Source: Ectocarpus siliculosus (lineage: Eukaryota > Sar > Phaeophyceae > Ectocarpales > Ectocarpaceae). From it: DNA of 64,000 bases. A program made the position numbers and the translations under genes. Below the pieces are notes generated by a model. The model did not search any database. It was not told where the DNA came from and was given only the letters and a program-made list of their open reading frames with translations. The stretch spans positions 463,964-527,963 of the forward strand of contig FN648885.1 in the NCBI GenBank assembly GCA_000310025.1, given 5' to 3'. This document shows positions 17,811-63,695 of the stretch, one piece after another. The number at the start of each line of letters is the position of its first letter. Within the stretch, counting starts at the first letter, position 1.

Positions 17811-20800
17811 ATGGCTGACCAGACTTGCATTGCGCTGTTCGACTACCAGGGTGACGGTAAGTAGCTTGCAGGAAGAAGCTGTTGTGAGGCATGCTCTCTA
17901 GGCTCACAGTTTTCGTTGCCTGCCGGAGAGAGACAGCTCTTTCCTCCCGACAGAGCGGGAGCTACAACATTTAGCTTCAGCATGATGGCGCGCTGTATGG
18001 TACACTACGAGGTGTGATTGTTGACGAGGATCTGCGCTGAACTCGAACATGTCAAAAGCTAGGGCTATAAGTTGCAACCGACATCTTCCGAGTGCTCGCT
18101 GAAGGCCATTTACGTACCAGAGGCCGAAATTCTTCTGCCAATGTATGCATTGGACTCCTCTGCGATCGTCGAACAAACGGGAAACGGCCGCGGATTGATG
18201 TCAATGCTGTGCTACAGCAGTACAGCAGCAGCACCAATGCAATGCTACGACATGGTAGTGCTCTCGGCCCTGCTGCCTGCGTTATTGTTCGTGCAGGCAA
18301 GGAGCAGCTAAGCTTCAAACAAGGAGATGTCATCAGCCTGAAGCGTGTACCCCCGGGAGAGGGGTGGGGCTTGGGGAAGCTCAACGGGAAGGTGTGTTGT
18401 GCTGACTTTATTGTGTACCACTTGGCGGGAGAAGAGGACGCGACTGATTCCGTCCGCATTTCTCCGTCCTCCACCCGCCGAACAATTACAAGCACATCCA
18501 CACCCACCCAGGATAGACAACTAGCGTAACAGCAGTAGCGGCTTTTTGTGCTGGGAACCGTGGGCGGGAGGGGTGCGTCCCACCAGCTGGGAGAGCACGC
18601 GCCGCTTGGCCGACTGCTACTGCTGTGGTGTTGAACAATCCTTCGACGCAAGTGCAACAAAGGCGTTGCGAGGCTTGTATCTGACCGCAGGAGTCTATTT
18701 GCAATTCAAATTTGGTGTGGATACAGACGTGTGGAAATGCAGAGCATTGTGTCGGCGACATACCAATGGCAATGCCGATTCCCCCTACCATCAGCTGTTG
18801 TCTTACATTGAAACCGTTCCGTTCTCTCTTCCCAGTACCTTTTCTGTTCGTCCTATTGTAGCCAACACTTGACGCGGTCGATTCCCGTGGTCACAGGCTA
18901 ACTTACCCAAAGAGGTACCATATACGAAAATATAATGGTACAGCAGAAATAAGCGCCGTGCCGTCGGGAATCGTGCTACAAAACATTCCATTGCCGTCAC
19001 CAATGCCACGGCGCTTCACCGCGGGCACACACTATTTTCTTGCTCAATCGGAAGGATTGATATCTTGGCACATCAGATGTACAAGTACATCCCCCCGCAC
19101 CCAGTTTTCAAAGACCAGCATCACACGGCAAGCACGTACAGGGGAGTCAGTATGTTACTCTTACCCTGAAGAGAAGGTGGTTACGGCGATCAGTGTCTCG
19201 GTGTTTTGTGGGGAAACTGTCGCACATGGCAGAAACAGTCGGATTTTCTAGCGTTAGTAGTGTACATATGCTCTGCCTCCAAGAGGTGTGGTGCTTACAA
19301 TAGCAGTACCCTGGCGAAGTTTTCTCAAGACTGCGTAGTACAATAGCGCAGTCATGTGGGCCGCCTGCCCACCCTATGCCCTGTTACGCCCAGCTGAACG
19401 TTTCAAGCCGAACGAACGACCCTTCCCACCGCTCCATGGTTACCTTCCTGCCACCCTACCACCGTCTCAGACCGGCTGGTTCCCCGTCAACTATGTGGCG
19501 ATATCGAACCGCGCAAGACCGGCAGCAGCCCCTCCGCCGGTGCCGACAACGGCGACGGCAGCAGGAGCAGCGCCAGCGCCGGCGCCGGCGCCAGCTACGG
19601 TCCAGGGGTTGCCGGCTTCGAACGTTCCCGCTTCCACCTCCAAGGCGGCACGACCTGACAACTTTTGGCAGCAGCCGTTCTCCGCCGGCGGGAGCGGCGG
19701 TGGTGCAGGCGGCGGGGGTGGGAGAAGCAACTCGCGGAGTAGCCTGCCTTCTGCGCTTCCCCCTGGAGTAAGCGGCGGCGGTGGGGGGACGAGCGGGGGG
19801 TCTGAGATGGTGAAAGCTCTGTTCGATTACGTTGCTCAGGTACGTAGGAATCAATTCAATGGGGTCTTGCGTTCGGCTGTTATCGTTTGTGGGAGTGTTG
19901 GTTCGTTGGGAAATGTGGATGACAGATATAATGTTCCCAGACAGATTAAACACACATGCAAACCAGTAAAAGCCCATCGGGGTCTCCGGCAAAGCGCCGA
20001 GACTCGATGAATCTTTGCGATCTTAGGAGTAGAGGCCATCTACAGGCAGATGTTGAAGGCTGCATTGCTGCATTACTGCATTGAATCCCGTCGATGGTGG
20101 GGTACTTCTCCATCGATGGTGCGTGTGTGTTGCGTGCTGGAAGACGTATTGTGGAAGCTCTGCTCGAACAACGTCGCTCGGACATGGAGATTCTTGTGCT
20201 ACAAATGTGCGTGCGGTTTTTTCCTGACGAACGGATGGCTAAGGCTCCGGCTTCCTTGGCACGCGACACACACCGACCGCAAGTGTTGACTTCATCTACA
20301 CCCACACCAGCTACTTCTATTATGTACGCCCCATTGTAGCACGACGCAACATGGTCTGGAATAGTAAAGGTGGGCACTGCTCCATGTCGGTAGATCCAGC
20401 CGATCCGACAAAGCTGAATCAAGGCGCGAGACACGCTCTTCACAGGTTGCACGGGACATGCTGAGCACATACGTGTTGTGTCGCTCGTTGCTGCTGCCTA
20501 TTCTAGGATACGGACGAGATCGGGTTCCGAGTCGGAGACATGATCCACGTGCTAGAGAAGAAGGCCGAGTGGTGGAAGGGGACCGTCGGCGGCAAGACCG
20601 GCCTGTGAGTGTCGTAGCAGCGCCGCCCGCACCCATGGGTACACGCTAACATTGCTCTTGACGCTTGTTTTTTTTTAACCTTCGATAGTACCTCAGGCAA
20701 TTTTTCTTGCCGAAGGTGTGGTCCTGGCCGTCTTGTATGAAAGTTTGAGTTCGTCTTTTTCGCTGGGGCTCTCTTCAAGGGGCTCTGTCCTGTGTCGAAA

Positions 20801-21924
20801 CAACGGTTTCTGTTGTCTACAGCGGTTTCTGGGAAGGGCCGTTATGTTGTTGTGAGTCTCGCCTTCGAGCAGGATGCGATGTGTCATGGTGTTGTGATGG
20901 TCGTGTCCCCCGTTTTTTTTCTTCTTCGCCTGCCCTGTCTGTAAATGCCGAATAATTCATGGTCAAGCGTTGAAAAGACGAAAAGACAAGTTGCGAGAGA
21001 GGAGGGGCGCGCAACAGGAAGCAGTCACAAGATTAGGAACGCTGCTGGAGCATCTACCAAAGTCGGCTCACGCGCGGTCACTTCCATCCCCAGAGACCCT
21101 CACGATGCGCCTTGTCATTTTTCCCTTGAGCAGTATTCAAAACAAGCACATTCATCAAACACTCCCCTTTCAGACCTCTCGATGTTGTCTCGTACACCTG
21201 TTGTCCTTGTCCTTGTCCATCACATCCCACCCGTTTGCAGCTTCCCCAGCAACTACGTGGAGCGCCAGGCCGTGACTACCGCCGTCCAACCGTCGGCTAC
21301 CACGGCCGCCGCCGCTGCCGCGGCCGCCGAGGCCACGGCGGCAGCGGCCGCCGCAGCGCGCGCAAGGTCCACCCGGAACACCGGCCTGTCCTCGCCGAGA
21401 CGGCGCGCGACCATGGCGGCGACGGCACCCACCGCCGGCACCACCATCGATTCGCTGGATCCTCTAGCTTCGCCGACCCGTCAGCAGCATCGGCGTACGG
21501 GGACGCCCCCGACGGCGCGGTCGGGGTGGGGGAGCCCCAACAGACCGGTCTCGATGCGGTCTCCTTCGTCGCTCATGTCGAGGATGCCCTGGTCGCCCAC
21601 GGGGAGGTCGGCGTCCGCGAAGGTGCCCCCCCCCCCCGGGAGCGGGGTGGCCGTCCCGACTGCGGTGCCTCCTCCCCCGCCGGCGGCGGCTGCCCAGACG
21701 CTCGTGCCTACCGTCGTGCCGCCCTCCGTCCAGGTGCCGGCACCACCGGTGTCGGCGGCGACGACGGCGCACGTCGGGGGGGCGGGGAGTGGGGCGGCTA
21801 CGAGCGGGCAGGGGCTGCTGCTGTCGGCGCCCTCGGCGGGGAAAGCGTCGACCAAGCTTTTCGGAGGGGCGAGGAGCTTGCTGAGAGGAATGTCCACCCC
21901 GGTGATTGGTGCCGGCCCTTTACA
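17811..21924 (+). other. Segment 1: exons 1-5, two SH3 domains and linker (residues 1-430)
   Basis: Exons 17811..17856, 18297..18391, 19471..19839, 20507..20604, 21241..21924. SH3-1 is split over three exons: CIALFDYQGDGKEQLSFKQ, GDVISLKRVPPGEGWGLGKL, then TGWFPVNYVAIS. SH3-2 is VKALFDYVAQ, DEIGFRVGDMIHVLEKKAEW with the next Trp, then GLFPSNYVE. Both show the ALxDY box, the acidic/Gly RT-loop to n-Src pattern, the Trp, and the PxNYV end expected of SH3. Between them lies an Ala/Pro run and then Gly-rich sequence (about 60-158). After SH3-2 comes an Ala-rich run followed by Pro/Ser/Thr-rich sequence with PPPP strings, a possible intramolecular SH3 ligand. The ATG is chosen because SH3 begins five residues later and no upstream in-frame exon was seen. 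Confidence 0.8.
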
Positions 21925-24900
21925 GTGAGTAACGGGTCGTAGTACATGGTGGAGGGGTGGAAAACGGCGTGTGGTAGATACGGTACAGGTACCGCTGGCG
22001 AGAGTTCGGGGTTCGTGGAGAGGTGACGCGGCGCCGCGCTAGTGGTACGAGTTCGCTTCGACAACGTTGCATGCGTCCAGTATGGTAACTTCGGTCTGAT
22101 GTCGTTTCGGCCCAAGTGCCGGTTCGCTCATGTTGTCCGTTTTGGGACCGATTCTTGCGTTCGATGTTGTAAGCCAGCTCCCCGTCTTTTCGAGTCGACA
22201 GCACCGACTAAATATCTGCACTCGTTTCTTCATGCAATGACTCGCGAATCGCGTCGTTCCCTTTGTTCGTCCGTTGACGTGGTATGGCGGTACTCTTCCT
22301 TGTTGCAGAGGCGGTCCGAAGCTGTCGTGGCAGACTTGGGCGTTCGCCGACATCATGGCGGACGCCTACATGAAGAAGCGCACGAGCGAGATCCCGGACC
22401 TGGTGGCCTTGGCGGCTAGCGCGGCCTTCGTGTCGAAAGCTCTCGGAGCCCTAAGCCAGGCGAGTGGGGTTTCCTAAGTGCGGCCATGTTTAGGATGTTT
22501 TATTTGTTGGGGGGGGATCTGCGGTCGTGGTCAGGATGAGTCGCCTGTCCAGCACTCTTCCCGAAGGGGGGGGGGGGGGGGGGGGTACTCATAGTCGTGC
22601 ATGCCGTAGTCGTTGGACCATTGACCTCGCATCCCTACAAAGCCGCCTGTTCCAGTACTCTTCCCGAAGGGGGGGCAGGGGGGAATTATCTGGCGTTGCG
22701 CCGTCAGGAGATTGGAAGTCGGGGTCGTCGAGCCAACCTTATGGGAAAAAATCGATGGATTTGTTTGGTTTTTGTGTTTTGTGTGTTTCAAGAATCGTGG
22801 GTCGTCTGTATAGTGCTTCCCACTCTGCTTGACCGTAGAACCTCCTCGCCTTCGTTTCTTGTGTTGGTTGTGTTTCTTTGTGTGTCTCTTCTGTCTCTTC
22901 TGTCTGTCTGTCTGTCTGTCTGTCTGTCGGTCGGTCTTGACCGCAGGTGTCGCAAAGCCCTATCCAGCGCCAGCTGCACCGTGTCTTGGAGGAATGCGGC
23001 GAGAGCTGCAGCAAGTTCCGCGTGGGCGTGGGAGACAATCAGGCGTTTCTCATGGTGAGGCAGAGCCGCGCAACTTCTATAATTTCAGCAGCAGCTTTTT
23101 TCTGATTGCCAACATGCTCCATGTGCAAACGTACATGCCATGGTTGGCAGGAACCGCAAGCCTGAAAGTCTGCGAGGCTACGAGGCCTCATCGACTTCGG
23201 ACGTGCAACATGATCCCCTGTTAGTTGCTATCGAGGCCGAAGGTTAAGGTTTCCCCAGAGCTGTCTGGTTATCCTTACCTTACCTCACCTTACCGGACAG
23301 TGAGTTTGTACGCTTCGTTTTCGCCAGACCGTGGGACCAACGTCTCTTGGCTATCGTGCGCGATGTAGGATAGATTAGTGTACTCCTGGTTATTTTCGTG
23401 TTCTGTCTGTTTGTATTTTTGGTGCTTCCCAGAGTTGTTCTTTTGTCTGGCGAGCGAGCGGCACACCGAGGTTTCATGGGAAAGTAGGCCAGCGTCAGCC
23501 CTTGATGGGTGGGGCCGGGTCCCTTCTCGCCCCGTTGTGCACTTTGACCGAGTAAGTAGACGTGTTGAAAACATTACATTCGTTACTGCTAACATCGGCA
23601 AGCCGTTCATCAGCAGGCGTGACGGCGGCGGTGTTGATGAGACGCTGTTTCGAACACCCCACCTCTTGCTCTGTCGATCTCCCATCGCCTTCTGCCGCTG
23701 TGATAAATAGTTCCTCAACGGCTGGGTCCAGAAGATCAGGGGGCTCGGCGTGGGGGACCTAGGGATGGCGCCGTGCGGGTGGGTCCGGGCCGACGGCACG
23801 GGTCATTCCGTGATTTTCGTGGTAATGAGGCGGGACGCCGAGGTGTTTTCCGTTTCGATCGTCAACCCGTACGGGGAGGGGACGGAGTACCACGCCCAGG
23901 AGGCGGACCCAACCCGGGGGAAGGTACGATACGCGCCGTTAATGATGTGGCTTTACTAGCATAAATACAATGTAGTTGGGTCTGGGGTATGTAGCTCTCA
24001 AGGGTGTCGGAACAGGAGTGACTGCCGAATGGTGTCGATAGCGAGAGAATGATACCCAGTGTCCGGCGAAATGTGGGTTAAGGGTGTGAAGATTCTGGGT
24101 GGGAGTCCGCAGGGGGAACGACCCCTGCCTTTGCGCCGGGGGTGACGCATGTCGCGGTTGGGCGGTAGGTAGGGTCGGGAGTACCGAGGCGTAGGAGACT
24201 TATCCCGCCACCGGGATGGCGTTGTGTCCAGGAGGAGTTTGGGTTGTGAGTTGGACGGGTGGGAGGCTGATGACCCGCCGGGCGAGGAAACGTGCGTGCG
24301 GATGGGGGGCGTAGGGTTTTAGGGGCTTAGGCTGCGTTATGATCGTCGGTTGCGGGTTGGCGTTGGTGGTTAAAGTCCTGGTATGTAAGATGTCAACGTT
24401 AATGTTCACCCTACCTCTTTTTGCTTGCTGTCGGTCGAACGGTGGCGAGCGTGCGTTCTTTAAGACGTCCCTTTTATAGCGAAAGGTCTTGCACGCTAGA
24501 GAATGTATGTGTCGTTACTTCCGGTTCTGCTCGGACTCGGCGCGGTAACATGAACAACTTGACTGCGCAGGTGGTTGGGGTTCGGGTGGTAGGCCTCCAA
24601 GCCACAACCAATGCTTACAAGCAGGTGGCATCGATGAATAGGACTTTTGCCCGTTTCGCTCTTTGTTTTACTTGTGATGGAGGTCCTCCAACAACTAGCT
24701 TTGTTCTGCTGCGGTGTCGGTTGCTGGCAGATGAGGTCCGTGGCGTCGCTGCTACTGAAAGACGTGCCCGGGTACCGTGTCCGAGACTCGTCGTTCTGGA
24801 TGCTGGCGTACCGGCAGCTGGTGCACGCGAGGCCTGAGAACGGGCCGGAGCACTTGTACGAGAGGCTCCTGCCCTACCTCAACTCTCGCCCCCTGCTGTC

Positions 24901-49400: not shown

Positions 49401-52400
49401 GTGCTCCCGTGGGACATCGCGGAGCAGGTTTGTGGACTGGCAGTAGACTGGAACGTTACGCCATGGCATATGCCGGGGAAGCTGATCATGCCTGATCCAT
49501 CTCACATCTTTTCGGTTCACTGGTGCGGTCGTTTCTCTCCTCCGCTGCGGCCAGTCAACCTGACGCATTTTCGATGCTCTACAACGGTCGTTTTCTCTCA
49601 TGCGCTCAACCAAACTGAAACCAAACCAGGCGCACCTGTACGTGACAAGACGTGGACACGTGTCCGCACACTGCCGACTATCGCCCGAGGAGGAGCTGCT
49701 GGTGCTGGACAAGGCTACCAAGGTCTGTGGCGAGGCGATGGAGGCTGCAGCTAAGGAGAACGCCGCGGGATCGGCAGCCCACTCGTCCATAGGAGCACAA
49801 GCGGGAAGGTATTACTGTGTATGTATTATTTTGTGATTTCTTGGGTGTGAAACTCGTCTTGCATGAGGCCACGGCGTGTAACGCGAGTGAACGGTGTATT
49901 ACGTTGATCTGCGGTTCGTTAGCCTGGAGTGCATGTGCGGTTTTTGGCGGTTACGGGAGAGAGTCCTGCGGGTCCAGCTCACGCTCAAATAGGTTCTAGA
50001 TATGCATATGAAAAAAAATGTGGCCATACCCCTCAAGACATGGGATGGAGGCGTCCATGCTACAGCTAGTGTTGTTATGGTTGTTGTTGTTCGAGGCAGT
50101 CGGCTCGTACTGATACAGCCGTAGTATTCCATATGAGGTGCTGTTGTGGGCTGCGGTGGAAGGTACCCAAAGCGAATGATGTGTCCGCTCCAGCAGAGGC
50201 ACTAGGGCCTGTGTCCTTTGTTTAGGGTCCTCCTCCTCCTCCGATTTTGCCGATGATTAACATTGTTGCTGCTGCTCTGCTGCTGCTGCTGCTGCCGTTG
50301 ATTTACACGATGCAACAACAGGTTGCTGGACTCGTTGATGGGCAAGGCTGGGCCGAAGTTCAAGCCGATCAAGCCTCGCGTGGAGATGAGCCTGGAGGCC
50401 AGTAATCGGAGAGAGCTTCTCAAGGCCCTCATCCACGCGGGGGCAGGGTCAACAACGGGAGAGGTGAGCTCAACAACAAGTGCTCACGGCTCTTGGTCGT
50501 GGTGTCTTGTTCTCATCTGCGGTCTGTGTGTGTTGTTTGTAGAGGTATGTATCGCTGCTCTTGTGGTAAAGACGGTAGCGTACCGTGCCAGGTTGGGCTC
50601 ACCCCCCGCCGCAACTGTTGGCTGTATCTGTTGGAGTCTCGGGTTGGAGATAGTTCCTCGTTTCGTACGCTTGTTTCCGTGTTGTCTTGCCTGCGTTCTT
50701 GTCATCGTGGTCATCTGGTATGCTTTTCGTGTTGTTGTCCCTGGCATTACTGTTTGTTGTTCAGGTGACCGCGAGGGTCAACAGCCGCCCCCCGTTGAAG
50801 CTGCAGTCGTTCGACGGCCTGGTGGATCACTCGTGCATGGAGGACCAGGAGAAGAAGGGAGGCCTCTTCTCCAAGGTACATAACCAAAGGAAGTCATTTA
50901 CCAGAATGTCGCCATGGCATGAGGAGACTGGGTTTCGCGTGGGCGTGCGAACATCATTTTTTGGCGTCAGAATGGACTTACAATAGTCCGCGTGGTATAT
51001 TCTGCTTGCACACGAGTCTCTGCCATGCGCTGTGCGGCGCCTAAGGTATCATCCATTTTCCGGTTCCCCATACGACCACGAAGTATGCCACACCAGCAGA
51101 CCCACTCTTGACTTGAGCGTACAACGTTCTCCAGGTCCAGTCGCCCCCAACGAAAACGCCTGACTAATCACCCGGTGCTCATGTTTATGTTTTGTTTATC
51201 TGCGAAATGCGTCACAGTCCCGCCCTCAGTTCCCCTTCCCAAGATTAAAGAAGTTCCCACCAACAAGCAAAGCCCCTCCCGGAAGTGAGAACTCATCACC
51301 AAGCTGCAGGCTTGATTGATTGTTGACGCTCGCAGCCACGACGCGTACCCGTTGCCCCCAGATGAAACACGTCATCTCAACCAGCTACAGTCCGCCGGTG
51401 GACGCCAGCGGCGCTGTCGCGCTCTTGGCTCTGGACCAGTGGCTCGAAGACGGCCTTAAGCTGGAGGAGGGAAAGTACGGCCTCGGCTTTCCCTTCATGT
51501 ACTTGCTTCTCACCGGGAGTATGGGACTCAAGGTGAACCCCCCCCTGCGTGCTCACACAGCGATTGTTTTTCGTTGAGTGCCTCGGGGCGACGGTGTGGT
51601 ACTACTTCTAAAGAGTGTTGAGTTTGTTAGGTTTTTTCTGGTTTGGTCTGAACTTGTAAACGTGTGGCACATGTGCTTTAGTTTTTGCTGGAACGGGGAA
51701 ACATGAAACCGAACTTGGCCTATTTACATCCCTTCTGCTCACCGGGACCATGGTGAATGTTCTCTTTCATGTCCGTGATATGTACCGGTAACCTCTCTGA
51801 AGCTCCTGATGGAGGCTTTCCTCGGAGAAACGTAAAAAATGTAGCCTGCCCGCAAAACTCCCTTTGTGTATTCCCAGCCAGCCGTAAAATGTCTGTCGTA
51901 CCCCCTCGAGAACGTTTCTCTCTCCGCATGAGCTATGCATCACACTGTTTGGCTGACGTTCATCTTTCACACCTTTGTCTGCTGTTATCGCTGTTGCCGC
52001 TTCCGTTGTTGTTGCTGCTGTTTGTTGTTGTTGCTACTTCTGTGGCAGGTGCTCCCCGAGGACAACACGTTCAACTGGGGAGCGGTCTTGCTGCGCCTGC
52101 TGCCTTGGGAACAGACGCAGCGCAAAGACCTTGTCATGTCGGTGCTCAGGGCCTTGGCGTACAATCCGTCTCTCGCCGTCGATGCTCCCAAGTGGCAGCC
52201 AAAGGTACCCGCGTAAAGCATGATCTTGTCATCGCGACGTTGACGAAGATATTTTTCTTGCGTCACTTCTCCAGCGCTCTGGTAGGTTGTTCAACGGTGT
52301 CGTTCTAGCGTCCTTCGCACAATGTTGAGCTGTCCTTCTGGTGCTGGAAGATGTCGGTTCGAACCCTTGCAGAAACAGAAGAAATAAACAATAGAGAAAA

Positions 52401-55400
52401 TTGGGCATGCCCAGACACCGCCCATTTGCCCAGAATGACTAGAAGAAAACGAAACGGTTATTACTCCCACGCTCCCCTTGTTCGATAATTTCAGTCTTCG
52501 AAGGCGTGTTTCAATCCCTCTGGGCTCTATTGTCACACAAATCCAGGCTCGGTTAAGGAACACGGCGGCGGTAGCACGGTGACCTGTCCTACCTGCCTTC
52601 ACTTCCCTTGAGGAATCAATCGTCCCACCGAAGGGGGTACGGGGTCCACGGCACCACCCGCCACCCTTAACGACTATTCTAAAGTCGGGTGCGCAACGCT
52701 ACCCTGGCGTCGTCGCCAGACACGGTGGCGACGGCCCCACGGTAGCGTTGGCACCCGAGTGCAGCAGGGTCGTTTAGGGTGGCGGGTGGTGCCGTGGACA
52801 CCGTAACCCCGCCTGTTGGACGACTCCTCAAGGCCGTTTGTGGCGGAGTGACACTTGCAAACCTTTTACGTTTGTCCTTGCTGACATGGTACCACTTACT
52901 TTCCGCCACAGGTACATTTTCCAAGCACAGTACGCTCTTACCTTGCCTATTTGTCCAAAGACATTACTCCGATGCGGGGCATCACAGAAATATCCTCTGC
53001 AGTGGCCCTACTATTTTTTTTGCTTTTTTCGAATTGCTATTTACTAATATTGGTATTTTCCTGAATCCCAAGGAACTCGAAAGGTTGCCATTGACAACGT
53101 GTTTTTTTGTCTACAAGTACGCCTTCAACAAACCTCCACTCTACGCGAGGATTTTGAACTCGCTGATGACGAAAGAAAAGTTGCTCCGCCAGTCGCAGTC
53201 CTACCTGCTTCCCGTACTAGTTCAACGCAAGACTATGTTTCTACTCTCAACGCGAGACTATATGTGCAATTGTTTCGCGTATTGTTTCACCTCCTACTCT
53301 TTGCCTTGCAGATGACCAAGGAGAAGCTGCTCCGCCAGGCGCACTCGTACCTGCTGTCGAAGCGTAGCTCCGTCATCTGGCCTCGGTCCCACCTGGTCTT
53401 CCACCCCGCCACGACGGTGTCTTGCTCGACCCTGTCGGTGTTGCAGCGGGTCGACAGGAGGTGGTTCGCGCTGAGATTGCCGGACGCGGCGATGTCCTCG
53501 CGACCGCTGGTGCCATGGGTGAGAGGGGGTACAGCAGGCAGGCGCCATAACTTTGAAGCCTCTTGTTTTTGCCTGTTTATGTCATTTTGTCTGCGGGGCA
53601 TCTCGACATGGAGTACATGGGTGGCGGTGTAGTTTGTTTTTGCTGTGTTTCTCTTGTTGTTGGTGCCGTCCGGACTCTTTAGTCGTATGTGTTATTGTGT
53701 AGTTCTTCTGCTGTCTTTTTCTGAGCAACTACATGTGAACATCTCTTCGTTCAGGTCGTGCATGCTTTCAGCATCGGTGTTGTTCCTCGCTCATGCTGAC
53801 GTGTTGTTCTCTTTTTTGTGTTCCTCCATGTTGCTGTTGTTTTTATTGTTGGTGCTGTCAAGACTGTTCCGTCGGAGGGCGGGCAGCTATCGCTGACCGC
53901 GGACGACTGCAAGGCGTTTTCAAGCTTCCCTCTCGCTCCCGTGGGCATCTCCTCGTACGTCCGGACCATCACCAGAAGAGACAAAGGTCAGCGCACGACG
54001 AGAGAAAACGTGTTCCGGTGATTTATGTGCTGCTGCTGGTGTGGCTCTGGTAGTTTATTTTGTTTTGTTAAATGGATGATACGGAGGTTAGGTCCTGGGG
54101 CTCCGTATATCAAACCAGGTACGAATAAGAATCCTAGTCAAGATACACGCAGAAGCAAACCACCGATGCTTGGCGTGGTTTGTCGCAATTTGAGGTGAGT
54201 GGTGTATCTGGGGATTGAACAAATACAGCATGATGTCTCGCTAGCCCTGTACATGGTGTCGCCCCTTGTGATCCTCGATGGACGCTTCGGCAGGGTCTTG
54301 CGGGGGTTTAGGCGGGTACTCAAAGATAATGAGCACTTTGCTTTGTTTTTTTCCCCAACCTCCTGTCTCGGATTGCACGTACGCTCTTTGTGGTTTTGGT
54401 GAGACAGGGCTCAGAGAGGTGGAGTCCCGGCTACCGTTTGCGGTGGAAGGGCACCCGTCGGCCAAGTCACACGTGGCGAAGGAGATGCTACGCCGCCTAA
54501 AGGAAGATGTGCAGTACTTCGCCAACGAGGTATGGAGTATGTACATATCTCTCGCCGAAGGTTGTCGATCGTCCAAGAAGCCTTTTTCCAATGTCTGTGT
54601 TTTTTTTTTGTGCTTTCGACAAAATTCCGCATTTTCCCCCAGGGCTACGGTGCACTTGAAACGCTACGACCAGTAAACAACATAATACCTTTCGAAAAAG
54701 GTGATCGACTTTGCACATATGCGAAAATTGACACATTCTCGGTATGCGGATCGATCCACGACCTCGGTGTACTCTACCTCACGTGAACTCAAACATTGGC
54801 ATGGATCTTGATCTTGAAAAGACCCACGATGACCGAGGCGGCGTTGCTGTTCTGAACACATTCCACGGTAACCGTTGCAAATTTTCATTGGAGAACCAGC
54901 AGCATTTGTGACGGTCCACAATGCTGTCCTCCGCACTCCGTTGCTTGTATTTCCCGGAGTTAGACCGGTTCGAAAGACTGCTGTCCGTAGCATAACTGCA
55001 CTATTACATTACGCTTGATGCGTCTTCATCCGGCCCTTGTTCGCTTGACCTTGCGCTGTCGTTTGGTTGTCCTCGCGATGCCACATAGAGCAACACCCAA
55101 ACCACCCCGGAGCTGGTAGGGTTCTCCATGCAAGAGGTGGCGTCTTACGTCAGGCAGCCATCTTCAGCGCACGCCTCGGCGCAGCGGGTGAGTCCGGTTT
55201 CAATAGTCTGGGTCGTTGTTCCGCGCTCCTTGTATTGGGCAATGGGGATTATGTTCGCGCGCTCTTCTTACGCGATGTTTATGGAGCCGTGGTTGGAAGT
55301 TTTGCGCGGCCTTCGTGGTAGCAAAAAAGCCCTCAATTTGGACAATATCTTACCATGCGATCCATGATGTATGAATATCTTTCTTTGCCTCACACTTGGG

Positions 55401-58400
55401 ATATGTGACGGGCGGTTTCACGCAACGACATCGCCATTTGTGAAAATGGTTCTAAGTGCAGCCCGAATTTCCTTCACCTGCTTTGAATTCGGACCACACG
55501 CATGGTTCTTCGACGTGGGGTCCAAGCCCTGGCCGTTGTTACACACTGCTTCCGTTGGCTGTGTTGTACGGACTTCGTGCCCGAGCTGCGTTCCCTACCT
55601 CACTGGGCGCGTGCCTTAAGAGACACGAGTAGTGAGTTGGTGCCGCTCTTGAACCTTGAACCACCTCCCAAGTATCGACCGCATACCTTTTGTGTCGAGC
55701 TATCCCTCTTGTCCTTGTCCTCACTCCAAGAACACCGGCCCCAAAGCATAGTACAAAGCAGTGTATCTTTCATGCGGGGCGAATTTATCCATGCTATGAG
55801 TTCCTTATCACCGCGTGTGGAATGTTTTTTTTTTTTTCCAGCTGGGCGGCCTGGTTGAGGGTCTACAAGCCCTGCTCCTCAAGGACAAGGCGTGGGTCAG
55901 GACAGCTCTCGGTCTTCTGAGGCGAACAGTCTCCGGGGATTGCGCCGGCGGCAGGGTGGCACCACCCGATGGGGCGGGGATAGGCGCGAACGACCAGCGG
56001 CGGCAGCTGTTGGGCTTCGACCTCGGCAGGTCCGTCGGTCTCGAGCTGGCGCCATCGATGCAGATGCTGGCCGAGCTGTCGTTGTGCTCTCAGGGAGAGG
56101 AGGTGAGGGAGTGGGCCGTCGTTTGTGAGTGAACAAGCGGCCTTGCTCGGCTTTTGAGTCTCGTGATACATAGAGTCCACGTGAGATACGGCCAGAGCCT
56201 TTGCCGTGCTCGAGGCGTGGGGAAATGTGCTCAGCGTGTGTTGATTTTGGGCAAGACGAAGGTTGAAAGTTGGGGGCTACCGGCGGTGCACATGGAAACC
56301 CGTGGTCATAGAACCGACGACGCGCGCCGCCGACCTTACCGTATAGGGAAATGGATCAACCATGGTGTAACGTTCCCGTCGCTGCTCTTGTCTCGGTACC
56401 GGGCCAGATTCTGGGGTACATCAACCCGTGGCTGACGTTGCAGAGCGCCGGAGCTTCCCGTACGGTGGCGCGCGAGGTGCTGGATGTTTTGATGGGCCTG
56501 CTGCTCGTGTCCAACCGAGTTTCACAGGCTAATCGGTGAGTACTGTACCTCGCTTCCAGGGAGTCGTGAGCTTCAGTGATGCTTTTTTGCGGGTTGTACC
56601 GCAAGGTACTCGAGTGAGGACACACATGCGAGCCGTGAGAGGCCGCTACATATCTTTGACGGGTCAGACTGCGCAGCGGTGAAGACAGCGTTTTTCGACT
56701 GAGAGGATGGTTCAAGGGAGCTTGGGACCCTGTGTGAAGTGGGTATCCGGTAGGAGTTGCAGTTGTTTCAGGCCAGTGCCGACAACAAGCGACAAGTGTT
56801 TACGCGCCCCCCCACCCCCCGACCCTGATCAGGCATCATAACCGTCCAAGGTGCCCTTTGATGAGTGCTAATTCCATGGTGCTTGATATGGACCCTGTCG
56901 CGGTCGACTCATGTTCGCGAATGGCGTGATTTTTTCCTGCATGTTTTTTTTCCTCGAGCGTTTTGACCACGGAAAACAGGTTCTTAAAATCGCAAGTATG
57001 CATAGCGGGTAAGAACATCGACCAGATATGAGCGAGATCCATGCTTTTGATGCATGTAAGCGAAGAAAGACACCACACCAGCGACACGGCTGACACTTGT
57101 ACCCATCTTCGACCGGTCTCCAGGTGTGTGACGATGGCGAACAGCCTGCTATCTGCCTTGAAGGGGCTGCATGGACAAGGGGGGAGCAACCAGCTTGCCG
57201 AAAAGCACGCGCAGATCCTCACACGACGGAGCGAGGTACGCCGGTTACATGGCTATTGTTGTTATTGTTGCCTAGCCCGCCCACTTTGCGTCAATCGGTT
57301 ACTCGGTTACTCCTGATGGTACTTACCGATAAATCGACCTCCTCCCCCGCGGTCTATCCGGATCATCTTGCCGAGCAATCCCAGCTCATTCAGGAACACG
57401 GTTCCCTCGTTCCTGACCAATCAATCAACTATGTCCTCAACTCTTTCCTATTCCTTGCCAGGCTCTTGCGGATGGGTTGTCGAAGGGGAGGCATTACGTC
57501 TTCCCTGACGAGCAGGGGAACACCGCTCTCGATCCCCGTTTGCTGCTGGTGGAGTTCAACTCGAGCATCTTGCTTCACCAATCGCAGGTGGATTTCTTGA
57601 AAGCATGTCTTCCCTTGGTCTTTTTGATGCGTACGCGGCGCGGACGATGAAGCTGCTTTGTTACCAAGAACCTGTCTTGTCTTCGCCCTTGGTCTATCGT
57701 CTATCGCTCATCAGCACCTGTAGCTTGCTAGGGCTGGGGGCTCTCGCGAACGACGGAAGTGATGCCGACCTAGCTCACCTCGAAGTGTGCCGTGCCGACT
57801 TTGGTGTGCCTTGTGCGAGTTATCGGCTGTGTGCTGTCGTCCTTTTGCACTTAATTTGAAAACAAGTTCCAAGTTTGTCATCGATCTCCGGCATCGGCAC
57901 TTCCTTTTCCTGGGGAAACGCGTGCGTGTGTTCGAGAACAAACTTGAATTTGAAGTCGAAATCTGAAAATTTGTGTACTGCAGTGAATGTTTTCAGATAC
58001 ATGCAGCTGTCCGGTCCTCGTCTAGGCTGTACGTTATATTGCTTCTTTGCTTGTTCCTTGCCCTGTTTGGAAAAGGTTTCGCTGATTGGACGGTTCATGT
58101 CCAAGGCTACGGCGGGCCAGTCGATGTGCCACCAGATGATCATGGGTGCGGGGAAGACTACCGTCGTGGCGCCGACGTTGGGATTGCTTCTTGCCGATGG
58201 ACGCCGCCTAGTGATGGAGGTACAGTACGGGTTATGCTCACGACTGCAACACCCATGACTGCGGTTTTCACCGCGGTTGACGTTGGGCGTAGTAGTTCGG
58301 TCACGACGGCTGTACCACAGTTCAAGAAGGAATGTGCACCGTTTTCACCGGTGTCGACGGCCAGTGTTACTGGATTGATTGATTGCGGCAAATTGCATTG

Positions 58401-61400
58401 ATTGATTGTATCGTAGGTCAAGAATTAGTATCTGCGCTTGGTGATTGTTAGTGGTGGAGGTACGCAGACGGCTCATGTCTATCAAACACGATGCTCTACA
58501 GCGGCCGCTTGCCGATGTTGACGGCCCCCAAGTTGTTGGTGGTCTTGATCCAAGACAGTGGACACGAGGTTAGCTTGAGTGAGTGCTGCTTGATGCATCA
58601 GTTGTCCTGTCGATTGCAGGTATGGAGCATGACGACGGCACGTCGAGATGGAATTTGAAACTTGCACGATACTTGGTAAAATCGTCGGTGGCGATAGTCA
58701 CCCGCGTTCGCTGTTGGGCGCAGGGTACCTGACATTTCCATGAAGCGTTTCGTGATGGAGGTATTCTGACTTTCTCTCTTTGCTAGTAGTCTGCCATGCC
58801 GTCAGCACAACTCAAGCTTTCTACTTGCGAAATCGGTGTTTCCCTCTCCAGTGCTTGATTCGGCCCTTTCGTTTTATCGTATCTGGTCAATTTTTCTGCG
58901 GCGATTTTTTTTGTCGAATCGAACGGTCAGGTGGTGCCCGACCCCCTGCTGGACTTCTGCTTCAACGTGATGAGGTCTGCCTTCAGCGTGACGCTCAACA
59001 GGCCCGTCTACGCGTTCAAGTTTGACCGCTTCATGGAGGTTACGCCCGCCATCCTAGAAAAGGTATACTGGGTATTATATGTGTAGGACGGTTACAGAAA
59101 AGAGGTGCACATGTAACACATGTATCTTCTACTCCGGAATTTGCTCAAAGTAGGTTGAATGGGTATTCGCCTTCGCCCACGGCCCCTCAATGGCACGTGA
59201 TGGTTATGCTCAGACAATGCGTACCTGTTATTGTTGCCATAGCGAAGTGTTCGGCAAGCGAATCGGAGTAGCACAGAGGGATGTTTGTTCCTGAAGGGTC
59301 CGCGAGTTATGAAGACCAAGGTCTTGATATGCGAATTTACCTGGCACAACTCGTTTGCCGTTGTGGACATGTTTGTAGCTGGCGGGACATACATATGCAA
59401 ACTCAGCTGTTCGTGGTGGCAACACCAGAACCACGGTGGTGTTTTTTGGAGACACCGTGCTACACACAATTACACAAGAACAGCCTTTGGTATGTCGTTG
59501 TGAACTTTGTTGAGCCCCTGCTGCTGCCATTTGTTCCCGTACGCGACTCACCGTTGCTTGTGTGCTCGGAAGTTGGAATGGAGTTGAGTTACTGTTTTGA
59601 TTGAGTTTTTTTTTGTGCGTTGTTGTCGCGGTCGCCGCGACAAACAGTAGTGCGGTAGAGGTGGTGAATGCGAAGCGGAAGATCACCGAGGTGCTCACTA
59701 ATGTACGTACGCAAGCGTTTGTCGCACAAAACGTCGTGTCAACCAGTCCACAATCACCATCACCATCTCTCATTTGGTGAGACGCACGCTTAAGAACCAG
59801 TACTGTTACGAGAGCAAAGAGCTTCCGTCGTCAGGAGAGAAGGAAAACCATCGTACAAGGGTATCACGCGTGTCTGCAACATTCCAATATGTATTGTATT
59901 TTCAGGTAGTGGAGGCTAGAGACCGCCGCTCCGTCATGGTGACGACGCCGACGTCCGTCAAGTCGTTCATGCTCAAGCTGGTGGAGCTGCTACATAAGCT
60001 CGACACCAGCCGCCTTGAGAGGGCCGAGATTCGGGAGGACAACAGCGGGGCTGCCGGGGGGATCCGGTACGTGACTGTCCTTGCAACCCGACACATCGAC
60101 AGCATTTTACGTGCTTGTGGCATTTTGCCAACGTGAAAGCTGGGGCGGCGTTGTTTTGGTTGGCGGTGGCGTACTGGAAAATATGGAGACATCTTACGTT
60201 TGAAATCTTCATGTCGTTGCATGTGTCTATTGTCATTGTTGGCGTTCTTCTCGCTTACTTTCCTCTGCTGCTGGAGTCTAAAAACGTTTCGTGTCTTGAT
60301 GGAAAACGACAAATAATAGGCGTGCGCTGGGCATGCGCCCCGGGTGGCGGAGGGCGCCGGCCAAGCTGGAACCCGTGCAGGAGTTGAGGAGGCAGGCGGA
60401 GATTGCCGTGAGGGTGCTCACGGTCTTCAGAGGCGCCGCACTGCTGCTGGACGAGGTACAGCAGTAGACCGGCAAAGTTTGACGTTTTGTCTCGCCGACC
60501 GTGATGGACTACAGACTATGCAGGGTATACCATGTTCTACTGGGAACTTTGTGTGGTTACGTTGTCCGCGTGCGGGGTGCCGAGGGAGACCAGCTTATTG
60601 ATAGTCAGGTCGTGGGTCCACGCTTCGTGGATCTGTGGTACAGTATGTATCAGTGCCCAACAGAGTGATGTTTCCGCGGAGCTGATGCGGCTGGCGAGCG
60701 GCACTCTTGCCTCTCGTGCTTCAATCATACATAGTGCATCGAATAGTGCGGTACGCACGCATCTTGCAAATTTGTTCCGCCCATTTCTGAGACTGTTTGG
60801 CCTTGGTCGGCATCATCGGTTTCCTCCCACAGGTGGACCTTATCCTTCAGCCGCTCAAGAGTGAGCTCAACTGGCCCCTTGGTGTCAAGCGACCCCTAGA
60901 CTTCACTCGGGCGAGGCCAGGCAGTCAGCTTGGCAACGGCCTGCGGTGGCAGGTGCCGTTCCACCTGCTGGAGGCGTTCTTTTACTACACCGAGGGGAGG
61001 ATGGTGGTCGACTTGGCCTTCCAGGACAGCCGAAGGTGGGATGATAATCTTTTTTGTAGTTTACCTTTTGCGTTGTCGTTGATGATGTTACATGTAGGTT
61101 GTGTTTCACTTTGTGCGACTGTGTTTGCGTCAGTGCTGCTCACCTTGAAGTCGTCTCGGTCTGCTGGAGGCTCCCTCTTCGCTTCACCGGCCCGACTATT
61201 TAGCGATCCTGACGTTGATTCCAATGCACGCCGTCAGTACGAAGAACAAGTTTTCTCTCCTACAAGTATTCCCAAAACGTATGCACAGTCTATAATATAG
61301 TTGCACAGCAGTACTTGTTTTTCTTGAGGTTGTTTGCCTACAAGGGCATTCTCAGCTGGCCCCCTCCTGTTCATGCTGCTACATATTTCGCGGCGAGAAC

Positions 61401-63695
61401 GATTGTCTCGGCTGTTGGTGACATTGATTTCCTGTTGATTTCGGTTCATTTTTTTCAGAGCGAAAGCGGTCCTTGAGGAGATTCGCGTCGCCATCGACGA
61501 GGGCTGTGCCGCCCGCCTGCTCCAGAAGACCCCGCACGTGGTGCTGCTGTCCAAGAAGTTCTACCACGAGAAGCTGATGCCGTTGCTGGCGCAGTGGGTG
61601 CTGCTGTGGATGCGGCAGAGACGGCTGAGAGAGGTCACCGATGAGGTATACTACGGTATTCAATGTCTTTGGCGCTGTCGAGCGGACATTTTCGAGAGGC
61701 AGTACCTCATGAAGTGGGTAAATCTTGTCACCGGATTGAGGTGCGACTAGATTTTTGGTAGAAGATTTTTTATCGCAGTTTATGGTTGAGCAGGTTTTTT
61801 GCTCTTTTGGTGCGGAATGAGGGTGGCACCACACCCGCCTTTTCCTCGCTGTTTCCCCCTCCGCTGTCGATGGCGTCTTTCTCACTGTGCTGCCCATCAG
61901 CACCGTTGATGAGGTACAAGTACCAAATAGAAGAACCCGAAGCATTTTTGAGTGAGGAGAGTATGGTTGGTTGGTGGGCCGTGCACTGGCAGGTGAAAGG
62001 CCTGCTGTTTTGTTCCTCGCCGTCCGTTTGCCACGGCAATCAATGCAGTTTTGTTTATTTTGGCGTTCTATATTTGTTTTCTGGTTGAAAGGTGGCGCTG
62101 GAGTACCTCCTCAAGGGACCCACGGCATCGGGCGAGCAGGTCAAGGCGGAGGTCAAGTCCAAGCTAAGCGATGATCACATCAAGGTACGAGGCGGGCTCG
62201 CGAGTCGTGATGAAGAAAGCACAAAGCTTATCCGGTGCTTGCGTTTAGTTGGTGCCTGTGGTTTGTGTTAATGTCCAACTCGTTTGGCCCTAGGCGCGCA
62301 CCAAGGAAGGTTTTTAATGGGTGATGCGAATTTGGGTTCTCATTACATGGGGATGGGAGGTATCATGAAAGTGATTGCCCCTCTTGCGTCTTCCACTTCC
62401 CTCTTGTATCTCCTTTTTGTCTAGGTGCTATTTAGACTGACGAACGACTGGTATTGCTTACACTTTTCCCCCGTTTTTCGCCAAGCATTACATACTGCAC
62501 CCCATTCCCGTTCTGCCACAGATGCTCAACCTTACGCACGACTGGTTGAGGTCCTTCCTGCCGCACGTTCTGACCAAGATCGACCGAGTCAGCTTTGGCC
62601 TTCTCACCCCGGCCGACCTCAAGAGAGCCCTAGAGGTGATTGATGATTGATGCACCTGTCGAGCGTAGATTTGGCGCTACACTATAATAGCAGTTGGCGT
62701 GACGTTGCATGCGTTCAATGTTCGGGAGACAAGACACGTTGGTAGGTTTTCTGAGATCCATTCTCGTTGGCATCAGCGTTCGCCCTAGACAAGATTTGGA
62801 GGTAATACATCCCGAGCAGTGTGGCAAAGGATACCAGTAAATTAGCGGTGAGAACTGATTCGTAGCTGGTGTCTGCGTAGGTCGATCGGTTTGGTTGCAA
62901 TGGCGCATTTGAGGAGCATACTCCGCAGGCGCCAATTGATGCACCTGGAGATATTTATCGTGCAGTGTTTAACGTATTTCTCATTTATTTGGAAGGCTTG
63001 GTCGATGTTCGAGCATGATCGGGTGCGACCCGGAGGACACAAGCCACAGGGTATTCAGCTGTTTGTAGCGGGCAAAGGTGCCCAGTGCCGTGCTCCGGTT
63101 TCGCGGAAGAGGCTCCGGGACTATATTGTCTCATTGTGTCACGCTATTTTGACGCGTTGTAGAAGTACATCGCTTTTGGACTTTTTTTGTCGCCTTTTTC
63201 CTCGCTGTGCATCTCATTCGCGGACGATGCGTGTCGCTTTGACGTTCACCAGGCCGACCCGAAGATGCCCAAGTCGCGCAAGCTGCTGGCCGTTCCGTTC
63301 GTCGGCAAGGACGTGCCGTCGAGGGCGTCAGAATTCAGCCACCCGGACGTCGTCGTCGGTGAGTCAAATCGAACCGTGTTCGCGTAGTCTGTTGACGCCA
63401 CCAAGAATGGGGCCTCACTTCCGGAGGTTGTCACAGTAGCTATCACACGGCCCTCGGCGTCTACCGCTGACCTCCGTGACTCCTGTTGTCTTGTCAGGGC
63501 TGACCATCCTGGCCTACCGTTACGAGGGCCTGCGCATGTCAGACTTCAGGGCCAACCTTCGGGCCCTCAAGGAAGAGATGGAAGAAGAGCAGAGCGGCCC
63601 TTACCACCTACGCCCCGCTTGCCGGACGTTGGTGCGGTGGGTCACGCTGGCAGGGGGCACCGTGAGAGGCGTGAAGCACGGGGGCGGAAAGAGCG
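17811..63695 (+). CDS. Giant two-SH3 DUF3638/DUF3645 protein (putative ubiquitin-thioesterase-family protein), at least 67 exons, 3' end probably beyond window
   Basis: One reading frame runs through 67 exons from ATG 17811 to a donor at 63696 (10,426 coding nt, about 3,475 aa); exon coordinates are in the eight segment entries. Order: SH3 (residues about 6-58), Ala/Pro/Gly linker, SH3 (about 160-211), low-complexity linker to about 430, a long conserved-looking region, DUF3638 (about 2929-3374) with helicase-like GAGKT (about 2994-2998) and LLLDEVD (about 3171-3177), and DUF3645 (about 3385-3422). Fungal and protist members of this family carry the same C-terminal pair and are often auto-annotated as ubiquitinyl hydrolases; I see P-loop-like motifs but no proven protease centre. 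SH3 domains imply binding to proline-rich partners. SH3 and DUF parts could be two genes wrongly merged, but phase, lack of stops and lack of another start favour one. It either splices at 63695 or reads through to TAA at 63704-63706. Confidence 0.75.
22560..22660 (-). repeat. Inverted fragment of the dispersed intronic repeat, with a 20-base G run
   Basis: After a run of 20 Gs (22566-22585) the sequence is the reverse complement of the 3' end of the repeat units at 27.2-27.7 kb and 49.0-49.2 kb (the part around GGCATGCACGACTATGAGTA). The flank AGCACTCTTCCCGAAGG reappears nearly unchanged near 22652-22668. The fragment lies in intron 6 of the giant gene. The G run is prone to sequencing length error. 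Confidence 0.75.
22901..22934 (+). repeat. CTGT tetranucleotide microsatellite in intron 6
   Basis: About seven tandem CTGT units end just before the TTGACCGCAG acceptor of exon 7 and form its pyrimidine-rich tract, so length variation here could affect splicing. Confidence 0.85.
26605..27725 (+). repeat. Two tandem copies (about 0.5 kb each) of a dispersed repeat in intron 11
   Basis: Copy 1 runs from about 26605 to 27125 and copy 2 from about 27195 to 27725. Shared blocks, in order, include GGTTGGGTTTTC, TTGGCAACGACGTTGTAA, AACCAGGTTACCG with a T run, GATCGAGTAGAT or GTCGAGTAGAT, GCAGTTACACAGTGCTT, GAAAGCACCAGAAAATAAAT, GGAAGTAAGCACAAGATGCC and GAAAACCCGGCGTGCTC or GAGAACCCGGCGTGCTC. The head module (GGTGTT, CCATCGGGGTTGGGTTTTCG to AAAACAAGCC, about 65 bp) is itself doubled at the junction (27127-27256). 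No coding capacity, terminal inverted repeats or poly(A) tail were seen. It is a non-autonomous repeat of unknown class. Confidence 0.75.
29605..29688 (+). repeat. 42-bp tandem duplication just inside intron 14
   Basis: Two copies starting TTCCATTTGGGTACA or TTCCATTTGGGTACAC lie at 29605-29646 and 29647-29688, beginning 13 bases after the exon 14 boundary. Both contain GTGTTGGAG or CTGTTGGAG. No function is inferred. Confidence 0.8.
29787..29822 (+). repeat. GT dinucleotide microsatellite, intron 14
   Basis: A nearly pure GT tract of about 36 bases with two TATGTG interruptions, followed by a T run. Confidence 0.9.
31385..31553 (+). repeat. 94-bp tandem duplication including the exon 17 donor site
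   Basis: AGGTATTGTTGTCGTCAC at the exon 17 boundary (donor at 31388) recurs 94 bp later as AGGTATTGTTGTCATCAC (31480 onwards), followed in both copies by an ATGTT...CAACAAT...GA.CCTCTTCTA series and a GTGACC or TGACC element. The second donor would shift the frame and bring in a stop, so it is probably not used productively. Confidence 0.8.
33354..33728 (+). mobile_element. tRNA-derived SINE in intron 20
   Basis: A tRNA-like head starts near 33408 with a good A box (TGGTCTAGTTGG, 33418-33429) and a textbook B box (GGTTCGAATCC, 33462-33472) at the right spacing for an RNA polymerase III promoter. A non-tRNA body follows, then an A-rich tail (33703-33722). AACAGTCC flanks the region on both sides (33354-33361 and 33721-33728), a possible target-site duplication, although about 45 bp precede the tRNA-like part on the left, so the exact 5' end is uncertain. 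A second A-box-like string (TGGCGTAGTGGATAGCGC) at about 33524 suggests a composite head. It does not fold as a full tRNA gene. Confidence 0.7.
34090..34275 (+). repeat. Triplicated 61-63-bp unit carrying the end of exon 21 and its 5' splice site
   Basis: Three consecutive units start GAAGACGACGTA at 34090, 34153 and 34214. Each has a GGTATG donor exactly 24 bases in (donors at 34114, 34177 and 34238). The first is the annotated exon 21 donor. Using the second would add 63 bases, exactly 21 codons without a stop; using the third would hit a TAG. Units 1 and 3 keep CACGTACAG before the donor, while unit 2 has CACATGCTG. Confidence 0.85.
39240..39402 (+). repeat. Dispersed repeat copy with TATAG and AAC microsatellites, intron 29
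   Basis: The stretch holds CTTGTGACCACGGAAGGCG, a TATAG pentamer array (39291-39325), a GATATTAGAAGGTACT element, then TTTAAATGTGAAGACAA leading into about nine AAC units (39375-39400). The same blocks without the microsatellites recur at 45893-46000, so this is a copy of one small repeat into which simple arrays have grown. Confidence 0.7.
40312..40467 (+). repeat. GTT trinucleotide microsatellite of about 155 bp, intron 31
   Basis: Some fifty GTT units are broken three times by GTGGTC. The array starts 42 bases after the exon 31 donor. It creates long artificial poly-Val, poly-Leu, poly-Cys and poly-Asn open frames that are not genes. Confidence 0.95.
43390..43475 (+). repeat. Short fragment of the dispersed intronic repeat, intron 34
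   Basis: GTGGTCAATGGTCTAACC is locally doubled (AATGGTCTAACC twice) and followed by GCTAAGGCATGC, an ACAAGAGTACG stretch and a C run. This matches the 3' end of the family at 27.2-27.7 kb. The upstream part is not conserved. Confidence 0.6.
45027..45072 (+). repeat. CA then CT simple-sequence tract, intron 36
   Basis: A CACACA stretch passes into CTCTCTCTCT within a longer pyrimidine-rich region leading to the exon 37 acceptor at 45167. Confidence 0.85.
45893..46000 (+). repeat. Second copy of the repeat seen at 39240, intron 37
   Basis: CCTGTGACCACAGAAGGCG, GGTATTAAAAGGTA and TTTTTAACGTGAAGACAA occur in the same order and spacing as at 39256-39380 minus the TATAG array. Its class is unknown. 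Confidence 0.65.
48853..48984. other. Assembly gap (132 Ns) in intron 42
   Basis: 132 undetermined bases sit between C-rich sequence and a copy of the dispersed repeat, as expected where an assembler fails on a repeat. The flanking exons 42 and 43 join in phase, so no exon needs to be missing, although one could be hidden. Confidence 1.
48985..49217 (+). repeat. Third copy (3' half) of the dispersed repeat, next to the gap
   Basis: From GGAAGTAAGCACAAGAT through GGTGATGTGAGAGCCTGG to GGCATGCAGGATTATGAGT and a C run, this matches the second half of the units at 26.6-27.7 kb. It also ends in a C homopolymer (about 49193-49215), so C/G runs seem to be part of the element. Confidence 0.8.
50264..50296 (+). 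repeat. GCT trinucleotide microsatellite, intron 44
   Basis: About ten GCT or TGC units with one CT interruption, 25 bases before the exon 45 acceptor. Confidence 0.85.
53118..53213 (+). other. Candidate cassette exon duplicating the start of exon 49
   Basis: Between exons 48 and 49 a 96-base segment with a CTACAAG acceptor and a CCC/GTACTA donor is open and phase 0 at both ends, so inclusion would add 32 residues without a frameshift. Its end encodes MTKEKLLRQSQSYLL; exon 49 begins MTKEKLLRQAHSYLL 146 bp downstream. Of 15 codons, six differ silently and two change the residue, a pattern expected if the copy was, or is, under protein-level selection. Neither splice site is strong. It may be a real constitutive or alternative exon or a decayed one. 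Confidence 0.4.
57462..62635 (+). other. Segment 7: exons 56-65, DUF3638 domain (residues 2929-3374)
   Basis: Exons 57462..57587, 58076..58219, 58931..59062, 59661..59702, 59906..60066, 60320..60455, 60833..61035, 61459..61645, 62092..62184, 62522..62635. Diagnostic strings: CHQMIMGAGKTTVVAPTLGL then LLADGRRLVME, RSAFSVTLNRPVYAFKFDRF, VMVTTPTSVKSFMLKLVELL, FRGAALLLDEVDLILQPLKS, TPHVVLLSKKFYHEKLMPLL and LTHDWLRSFLPHVLTKIDRV. GAGKT and the LLLDEVD block resemble motifs I and II of superfamily 2 helicases, so nucleotide binding is plausible; the family's automatic ubiquitin-hydrolase label has no support visible here. Exon 59 is only 42 nt, and its acceptor (GGTAGAG) was chosen because nearer AGs place a stop or break the frame. 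Confidence 0.8.
63253..63695 (+). other. Segment 8: exons 66-67, DUF3645 domain (residues 3375-3475), continuing past the window
   Basis: Exons 63253..63358 and 63498..63695. The joined frame reads LAVPFVGKDVPSRASEF, SHPDVVVG and LTILAYRYEGLRMSDF, which is the DUF3645 signature (PF-x-x-KDVP-S-x-x-x-EF-x-HPD, then a hydrophobic helix and Tyr-rich turn). It is followed by CRTLVRWVTLAGG. In relatives I recall the protein continuing well beyond this point, and AAGAGCG/GTGAGA is a good donor, so I expect more exons to the right. Without splicing the frame stops at TAA 63704-63706 after four residues. Confidence 0.75.

Follow-up and report, generated by a model that had tools for sequence, protein, structure and literature searches.

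What does the giant gene predicted at this locus encode, and is it one gene or several neighbours joined? The window analysed here is a stretch of 64,000 nucleotides from Ectocarpus siliculosus (C472:463964-527963, within a 189 Mb genome), in which two SH3 domains are followed in the same predicted frame by a long DUF3638/DUF3645 body. In that genome the EsV-1-7 motif, which is expanded in brown algae, gave a match in all 150 scored of 880 candidates, so that a brown alga is the likely source. The explanation that we slightly favour is a giant protein, 4,776 residues or more in length, in which an old body carrying a SecA-like tandem-RecA motor has acquired SH3, EF-hand and Vps62 adaptors and would act in polypeptide remodelling. 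SecA is the bacterial protein-translocation ATPase.

Gene model and domain organization

Exons were chained with a program written for the purpose that combines a coding model with splice-site matrices; its training set was first the long exons of two paralogues and later, in part, the present gene itself. Three intron-cost settings predicted 105, 98 and 94 exons, 92 of which are common to all three by count from the listing; exons 1 and 2 recur in every setting, whereas exon 3 recurs in two and is started further upstream by the remaining one. The curated model, in which exon 8 (best reading 23711-23923) and where the final exon stops were set manually, comprises 96 exons encoding at least 4,776 residues from a start at 17811 in a single spliced frame without stops. 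Its 95 introns have a median length of 461 bases, and one of them contains a 132-base run of N (48853-48984) that could conceal a short exon. The first-pass annotation described a gene of 67 exons that ends at 63695. The gene does have many exons, 69 up to that point in our model, but 63695 is merely the end of the last complete exon inside the window: the donor gtgaga comes next, the following exon lies at 63986-64209, and the coding frame extends past the window edge to ~78940 (window-extended coordinates). Beyond its end the assembly has a gap of 7,877 bases (79158-87034).

A Pfam scan of residues 1-4774, with matches judged against the Pfam cut-offs, identified the N-terminal SH3 pair (1.4e-27 jointly; SH3_1 9.3e-12 and 1e-17 individually, both over the cut-off), DUF3638 (PF12340; 90.1 bits against a cut-off of 31, 1.7e-25, the best stretch being profile positions 8-155 of 225) and, downstream of it, DUF3645 (PF12359; 59.6 bits against a cut-off of 25, 1.8e-16, and 4.9e-14 in a genome search). 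Further along are a third SH3 domain (SH3-3; 7.5e-11, over the cut-off), EF-hands (EF-hand_7, 1.1e-15, over the cut-off) whose Ca2+ loops DFDGDGKLGENE and DLDCDGYVSWDE fit the 12-residue DxDGDGxLxxxE pattern, and a Vps62-like domain of which only the beginning is matched (1.1e-7, over the cut-off). The SH3 ligand residues (ALFDY, W, PxxY), read by eye, are present. The earlier description of two N-terminal SH3 domains in one frame with the DUF3638/DUF3645 body, uninterrupted by stops, was thus correct as far as it went; the SH3 total is three, and EF-hands and a Vps62-like domain have to be added. The GAGKT and LLLDEVD blocks that it reported correspond to MGAGKT (58142) and to LLLDEVD (60441), the second of which is split by an intron. 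DUF6606 (PF20255), for which it proposed a search, had no match in the Pfam scan of the protein or in a genome search that was positive nowhere, controls included. The features are as follows, with sources of evidence.

17811..19510 (+): SH3 domain 1, exons 1-3 (17811-17856, 18297-18391, start of 19471-19839); SH3_9 1.6e-12, SH3_2 4.9e-12, SH3_1 9.3e-12
17832 and 19489 (+): SH3-1 motifs ALFDYQ and NYVA, respectively; position in the gene model
19807..21262 (+): SH3 domain 2, exons 3-5 (end of 19471-19839, 20507-20604, start of 21241-21924); SH3_1 1e-17, exon 20507-20604 positive in the whole-genome SH3 search
21263..21924 (+): Ala/Pro/Ser-rich linker from SH3-2 to the body, poly-proline PPPPPAAAA at 21668; translation
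21924..22309 (+): exon 5/exon 6 junction, ACA/GTGAGT ... TTGTTGCAG/A; splice-site scores
22309..25864 (+): predicted start of the body, exons 6-10 (22309-22459, 22947-23054, 23711-23923, 24731-24928, 25754-25864); 13-sequence chlamydial profile
23795, 23873 and 25784 (+): N-terminal module motifs GTGHS, GEGTEYH and GGNPSK, respectively; gene model
46621..50463 (+): mid-body block, residues 2172-2460; chlamydial profile, 43.2 bits, 3.9e-16
58076..58219 (+): motor motif I MIMGAGKT (MGAGKT at 58142), within DUF3638; Pfam and alignment
58931..60066 (+): DUF3638 continued (58931-59062, 59906-60066); PF12340 1.7e-25
60353..61035 (+): motif II LLLDE/VD from 60441, intron-split (60353-60455, 60833-61035); D and E invariant among relatives
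61459..62635 (+): portion of the motif II-III insertion (61459-61645, 62092-62184, 62522-62635); gene model, and chlamydial profile over residues 2966-3469, 1e-51
63253..63695 (+): DUF3645 (63253-63358, 63498-63695); PF12359 1.8e-16
63986..64000 in the window (+): first bases of exon 63986-64209, poly-proline TPPPPPPE at 63991; gene model
64652 (+), beyond the window: motif III GFSGT; same frame
65684-65853 and 66294-66418 (+), beyond the window: motif V, two exons; same frame
66371 (+), beyond the window: motif VI QGAFRMRG; same frame
69860-70539 (+), beyond the window: SH3-3; Pfam
70864-71900 (+), beyond the window: Glu-rich stretch; same frame
72889-72989 and 75427-76200 (+), beyond the window: EF-hands; Pfam
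78023-78940 (+), beyond the window: Vps62-like domain; Pfam

Residues 882-2902 contain no family over its Pfam cut-off. Matches below the cut-offs were to Transposase DDE (0.0074; 16.5 of 23 bits) over the Vps62-like part and to Toxin_4 (0.22) in the mid-body. An NCBIfam scan of two pieces of the protein gave no match for the motor and, for the piece with SH3-3 and the EF-hands, two matches below cut-off, to a calcium-binding effector family (1e-6) and a deiodinase-related family (0.018).

The predicted motor core

The core, consisting of DUF3638, DUF3645 and the next ~400 residues, is predicted to be a tandem-RecA ATPase of helicase superfamily 2 whose nearest solved relatives are SecA proteins. 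The fold was predicted on a chlamydial relative: its core adopts the helicase-superfamily-2 ATPase fold in the predicted structure, and SecA tops the matches in the Protein Data Bank (PDB) by a modest lead, the four SecA rows aligning over 448-504 residues at an rmsd of 4.8-6.1 as against ~320-345 residues for the non-SecA rows. The order of motifs is the same as in SecA, and a large insertion between motifs II and III occupies the same place, where SecA has its preprotein cross-linking domain, although it is longer (320-416 residues versus 180 in E. coli SecA). In the alignment the algal copy retains every motor motif and 22 of the 23 residues that are invariant among relatives.

Against SecA-likeness stands the profile-profile comparison with SecA, UvrB and RhlE, which was weak and non-discriminating; with 12 rows, UvrB (0.0075) was about level with the SecA alignment (0.0081), and because of this we lowered our estimate slightly, to a level at which we still regard a SecA-like core as reasonably probable on the modelled fold. 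At E<=1 the scan of residues 1-4774 of the alga's protein lists no SecA_DEAD (PF07517), and PDB sequence searches with a paralogue core and with the chlamydial core profile returned no reliable match. The algal protein also differs from SecA in its giant size and extra modules, and the best reading is that it is a variant of the DUF3638 family and not a SecA.

The same fold could serve a nucleic-acid helicase or a RIG-I-type RNA sensor rather than a polypeptide motor. This is the strongest of the alternatives, but we consider it unlikely: SecA comes first in both structure lists with the longer alignments, the insertion lies where SecA has it, and no RNA- or DNA-binding family exceeds its cut-off, the Transposase DDE match included.

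Chlamydial genomes contain, besides true SecA, other large frames that match SecA_DEAD at 3e-30 to 2e-12, namely G099:C4:142242 (5178 aa), G099:C1:867505 (3323 aa), G105:C1:1772200 and G105:C1:1607233. Among the seven targets compared profile to profile, the lowest E value, 0.00048, was that of the frame L105 (from G099:C4). It is possible that such frames bridge SecA and the DUF3638 giants.

One gene or several neighbours

That the SH3 domains, the DUF3638 body and the downstream modules form one gene is highly probable given the predicted model, and such a gene would give rise to one continuous transcript. Two junctions are doubtful, that between exons 5 and 6 and that before SH3-3. Both have good acceptors: the exon 5/6 acceptor lies at the 61st percentile among those of the gene, with 1.2% of background AGs scoring as high, and for the SH3-3 junction the figure is 0.36%. 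Exon 6, moreover, has no in-frame ATG upstream of Met447 back to the preceding stop, whereas homology to chlamydial proteins is already present from residue 442.

Several observations weigh against the fusion. The donors of both junctions are weak, at the 9th percentile of the gene's donors for exon 5/6, a level met by 6.8% of background GTs, and at the 2nd percentile for SH3-3. Reading through them leads to immediate in-frame stops at 21926 and 69377, and a weak donor combined with an immediate stop is seen in only 12 of the 95 introns. The model might have fused two or three neighbours. One would be an SH3-SH3 adaptor at 17811-21928, the next would carry DUF3638 from 22309 to ~69379, and the SH3-3 Met would open an SH3/EF-hand/Vps62 gene. 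A Met shortly ahead of every SH3 domain would suit separate genes, as would 14 alternative start-exon combinations between exons 5 and 6, the top donor among them scoring 4.8. We nevertheless find this arrangement improbable, as it has to account for the good acceptors and the missing start in exon 6, and the gaps of 384 and 484 bases are intron-like in length and leave scant space for a terminator and a promoter. A Glu-rich stretch that follows motif VI in some relatives is found here after SH3-3, though it is of low complexity.

The scarcity of SH3 domains elsewhere also argues against separate genes. Searches of the 189 Mb with Pfam SH3_1, SH3_2 and SH3_9 ignore introns, so that intron-split SH3 domains may escape them; within that scope SH3_1 matched only the present gene, at two sites ~49 kb apart that flank the motor, and SH3_2 and SH3_9 contributed one additional locus (C2:2782383-2783170) and one weak match (C1:2877700). 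Judged by these three models, the alga seems to have very few SH3 domains: two exons here, one other locus and one weak match. A profile of the gene's three SH3 domains, run against two 50 kb regions around paralogous DUF3638 genes, gave a single match (E 0.52). The fusion proposed by the first-pass annotation is therefore supported short of proof, the continuous frame, the acceptors and the lack of SH3_1 matches elsewhere in a search that ignores introns speaking for it and the junction donors against.

Relatives in Chlamydiota, giant viruses and the algal genome

A search of prokaryote genomes returned 14 loci whose titles name 10 chlamydial, 2 Verrucomicrobia and 2 just 'bacterium' sources. 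DUF3638 exceeds its Pfam cut-off in 94 of 232 genomes of a phylum presumed to be Chlamydiota (110 at E<=0.001), many of the frames being ~3,000 residues long. A profile built on 26 chlamydial frames, including two pairs of repeats or near-repeats (L033/L076, L039/L080), matched the algal protein at residues 442-939 (4.6e-14), 1619-1661 (1.3e-4), 2172-2460 (3.9e-16), 2966-3469 (1e-51) and 3556-4144 (5e-51). The match begins at exon 6, and therefore the SH3 exons precede an old body; its last segment skips over SH3-3. After SH3-3 the homology test matched the Glu-rich stretch only (21 bits), so that a position of this domain within the old body is no more than suggested.

The chlamydial DUF3638 giants (L031-L044, L075-L094) share with the algal protein the N-terminal GHx module, the mid block and all motor motifs, and some have a Glu-rich stretch after motif VI; unlike it, they are unbroken frames. 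Pfam scans of 6 of the 15 complete frames, and of 3 whose 5' end is open, gave no SH3, EF-hand or Vps62 match at E<=1, and our own SH3 profile had no hit below E 0.2 across the 26 frames. Giant-virus proteins (Harvfovirus, Fadolivirus, Hyperionvirus, Hokovirus) have a predicted fold near that of the chlamydial core (TM 0.59-0.71, ranks 1-7), although their structure models are pieces of 1,014-1,486 residues. Two pattern scans yielded no viral contigs, but as giant-virus relatives are present in the structure library, this is not proof of absence.

The paralogous DUF3638 genes C23 and C9 contain DUF3638, DUF3645 and all motor motifs, but encode ~2,800 residues in 9 and 11 modelled exons, which are large, and resemble the window protein at 24-34% identity in short blocks only. 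These paralogues (best 53.5 bits) are less similar to the window copy than is chlamydial L031, which scores 184 bits with 26% identity over 844 residues. In a tree of 32 motor cores, from which the duplicate rows L033 and L039 were omitted, the three algal copies join at support 45/46 on long branches, so that the tree favours no particular origin or direction of transfer. The genome of L031 (G004), a Parachlamydiaceae genome of 3.2 Mb, has 14 DUF3638 matches, a strong expansion, some perhaps being fragments of one gene on short contigs.

The N-terminal module

A 13-sequence chlamydial profile matched algal residues 442-638 at 29.7 bits (1.9e-11), compared with -0.0 bits for the best of 200 shuffles and -1.3 bits for the top-scoring unrelated segment elsewhere in that protein. 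GH, N.G.G and GxC are invariant across the 13 aligned modules; these rows were chosen from the 26 frames for a GH-like motif, so the Cys, not the His, is the unselected invariant. The module profile matches 21 of the 26 frames at E<1e-3 and shows none at that level in the other 5, and L039 has neither GH nor GxC. By eye the chlamydial pair, His before Cys, looks like a cysteine-peptidase dyad. With the 13-row profile nothing in the PDB scored below E 0.3 and Pfam gave no consistent family, and an AF2 model from three rows (pLDDT 49.5) was too poor for a fold search. In the algal module GH is kept (GTGHS) and the GxC Cys is replaced in a predicted exon (GGNPSK).

This loss would fit a protein whose motor is likewise degenerate and retained merely as a scaffold, but we think it quite unlikely that the motor has decayed with all its motifs and all but one of the invariant columns in place. 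Least probable is the ubiquitin thioesterase of the database family label: the name 'ubiquitinyl hydrolase 1' is attached to two relatives from giant viruses and the dyad-like pair is present in all 13 chlamydial modules, but no peptidase family was consistent among these, and a ubiquitin-peptidase reading of the algal protein was rejected with no such Pfam family at E<=1 and the Cys gone. The earlier question of helicase versus thioesterase is accordingly answered in part, by the predicted helicase-superfamily fold of a relative, SecA first, and the lack of a peptidase family here.

Proposed working of the protein

In the arrangement that we favour, two SH3 domains and a proline-rich linker would have been added before the body, with a third SH3 domain after the motor followed by EF-hands and a Vps62-like end. 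The SH3 domains could position the motor on proline-rich partners, or alternatively fold back onto the protein's own poly-proline, at 21668 or at 63991 inside the motor (DUF3645 to motif III). Calcium might tune the motor through the EF-hands, ATP hydrolysis would thread or remodel a polypeptide in the manner of SecA, and the Vps62-like end may, on the name of PF06101 alone, place the protein at membranes. The analysis shows the domains, the frame, the motifs, homology from exon 6 onward and the predicted fold of a chlamydial relative; one continuous transcript, SecA-like work on polypeptide, self-binding and calcium control are inferred. A bolder version is rather unlikely: a eukaryotic cousin of SecA, controlled by calcium and SH3 domains, that works in the cytosol of the alga, threading or unfolding polypeptides, and belongs to a lineage common to the giants of Chlamydiota and giant viruses, maybe exchanged among endosymbionts, viruses and algae.

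A link to a SecA-like motor would turn a family of 'unknown function' into a directly testable one, for which the algal fusion supplies experimental handles in its SH3, calcium and poly-proline switches. In the passages available, DUF3638 is termed 'widely distributed among eukaryotic proteins' with its mechanism undefined (2025; PMC12615304), is noted as expanded in a fungus (PMC6627653), is entered in a table annotating the lineage-specific genes of Aspergillus oryzae (PMC6237848) and appears among large gene families in the legend to a figure on microsporidia (PMC5423893). Amoebophilus effectors are described with 'SecA-like helicase-related domains' (PMC3482391) in a passage that does not mention DUF3638. 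In literature from which subscription papers are mostly absent, published passages on DUF3638/DUF3645 or on chlamydial 'SecA-like' proteins contained neither the SH3 fusion nor a tie of DUF3638 to SecA or its fold, and no mention of DUF6606 was found.

Neighbouring sequence

Upstream of the gene, open frames overlap on opposite strands at 13367-16261 (-; 964 aa) and 13665-15230 (+; 521 aa), with no Pfam match at E<=0.01 for either. Downstream of the assembly gap, a dynein heavy chain-like gene lies on the + strand at C472 ~95970-132120 (window-extended coordinates; L027-L030), one piece of which matches AAA_6 at 4.9e-90.
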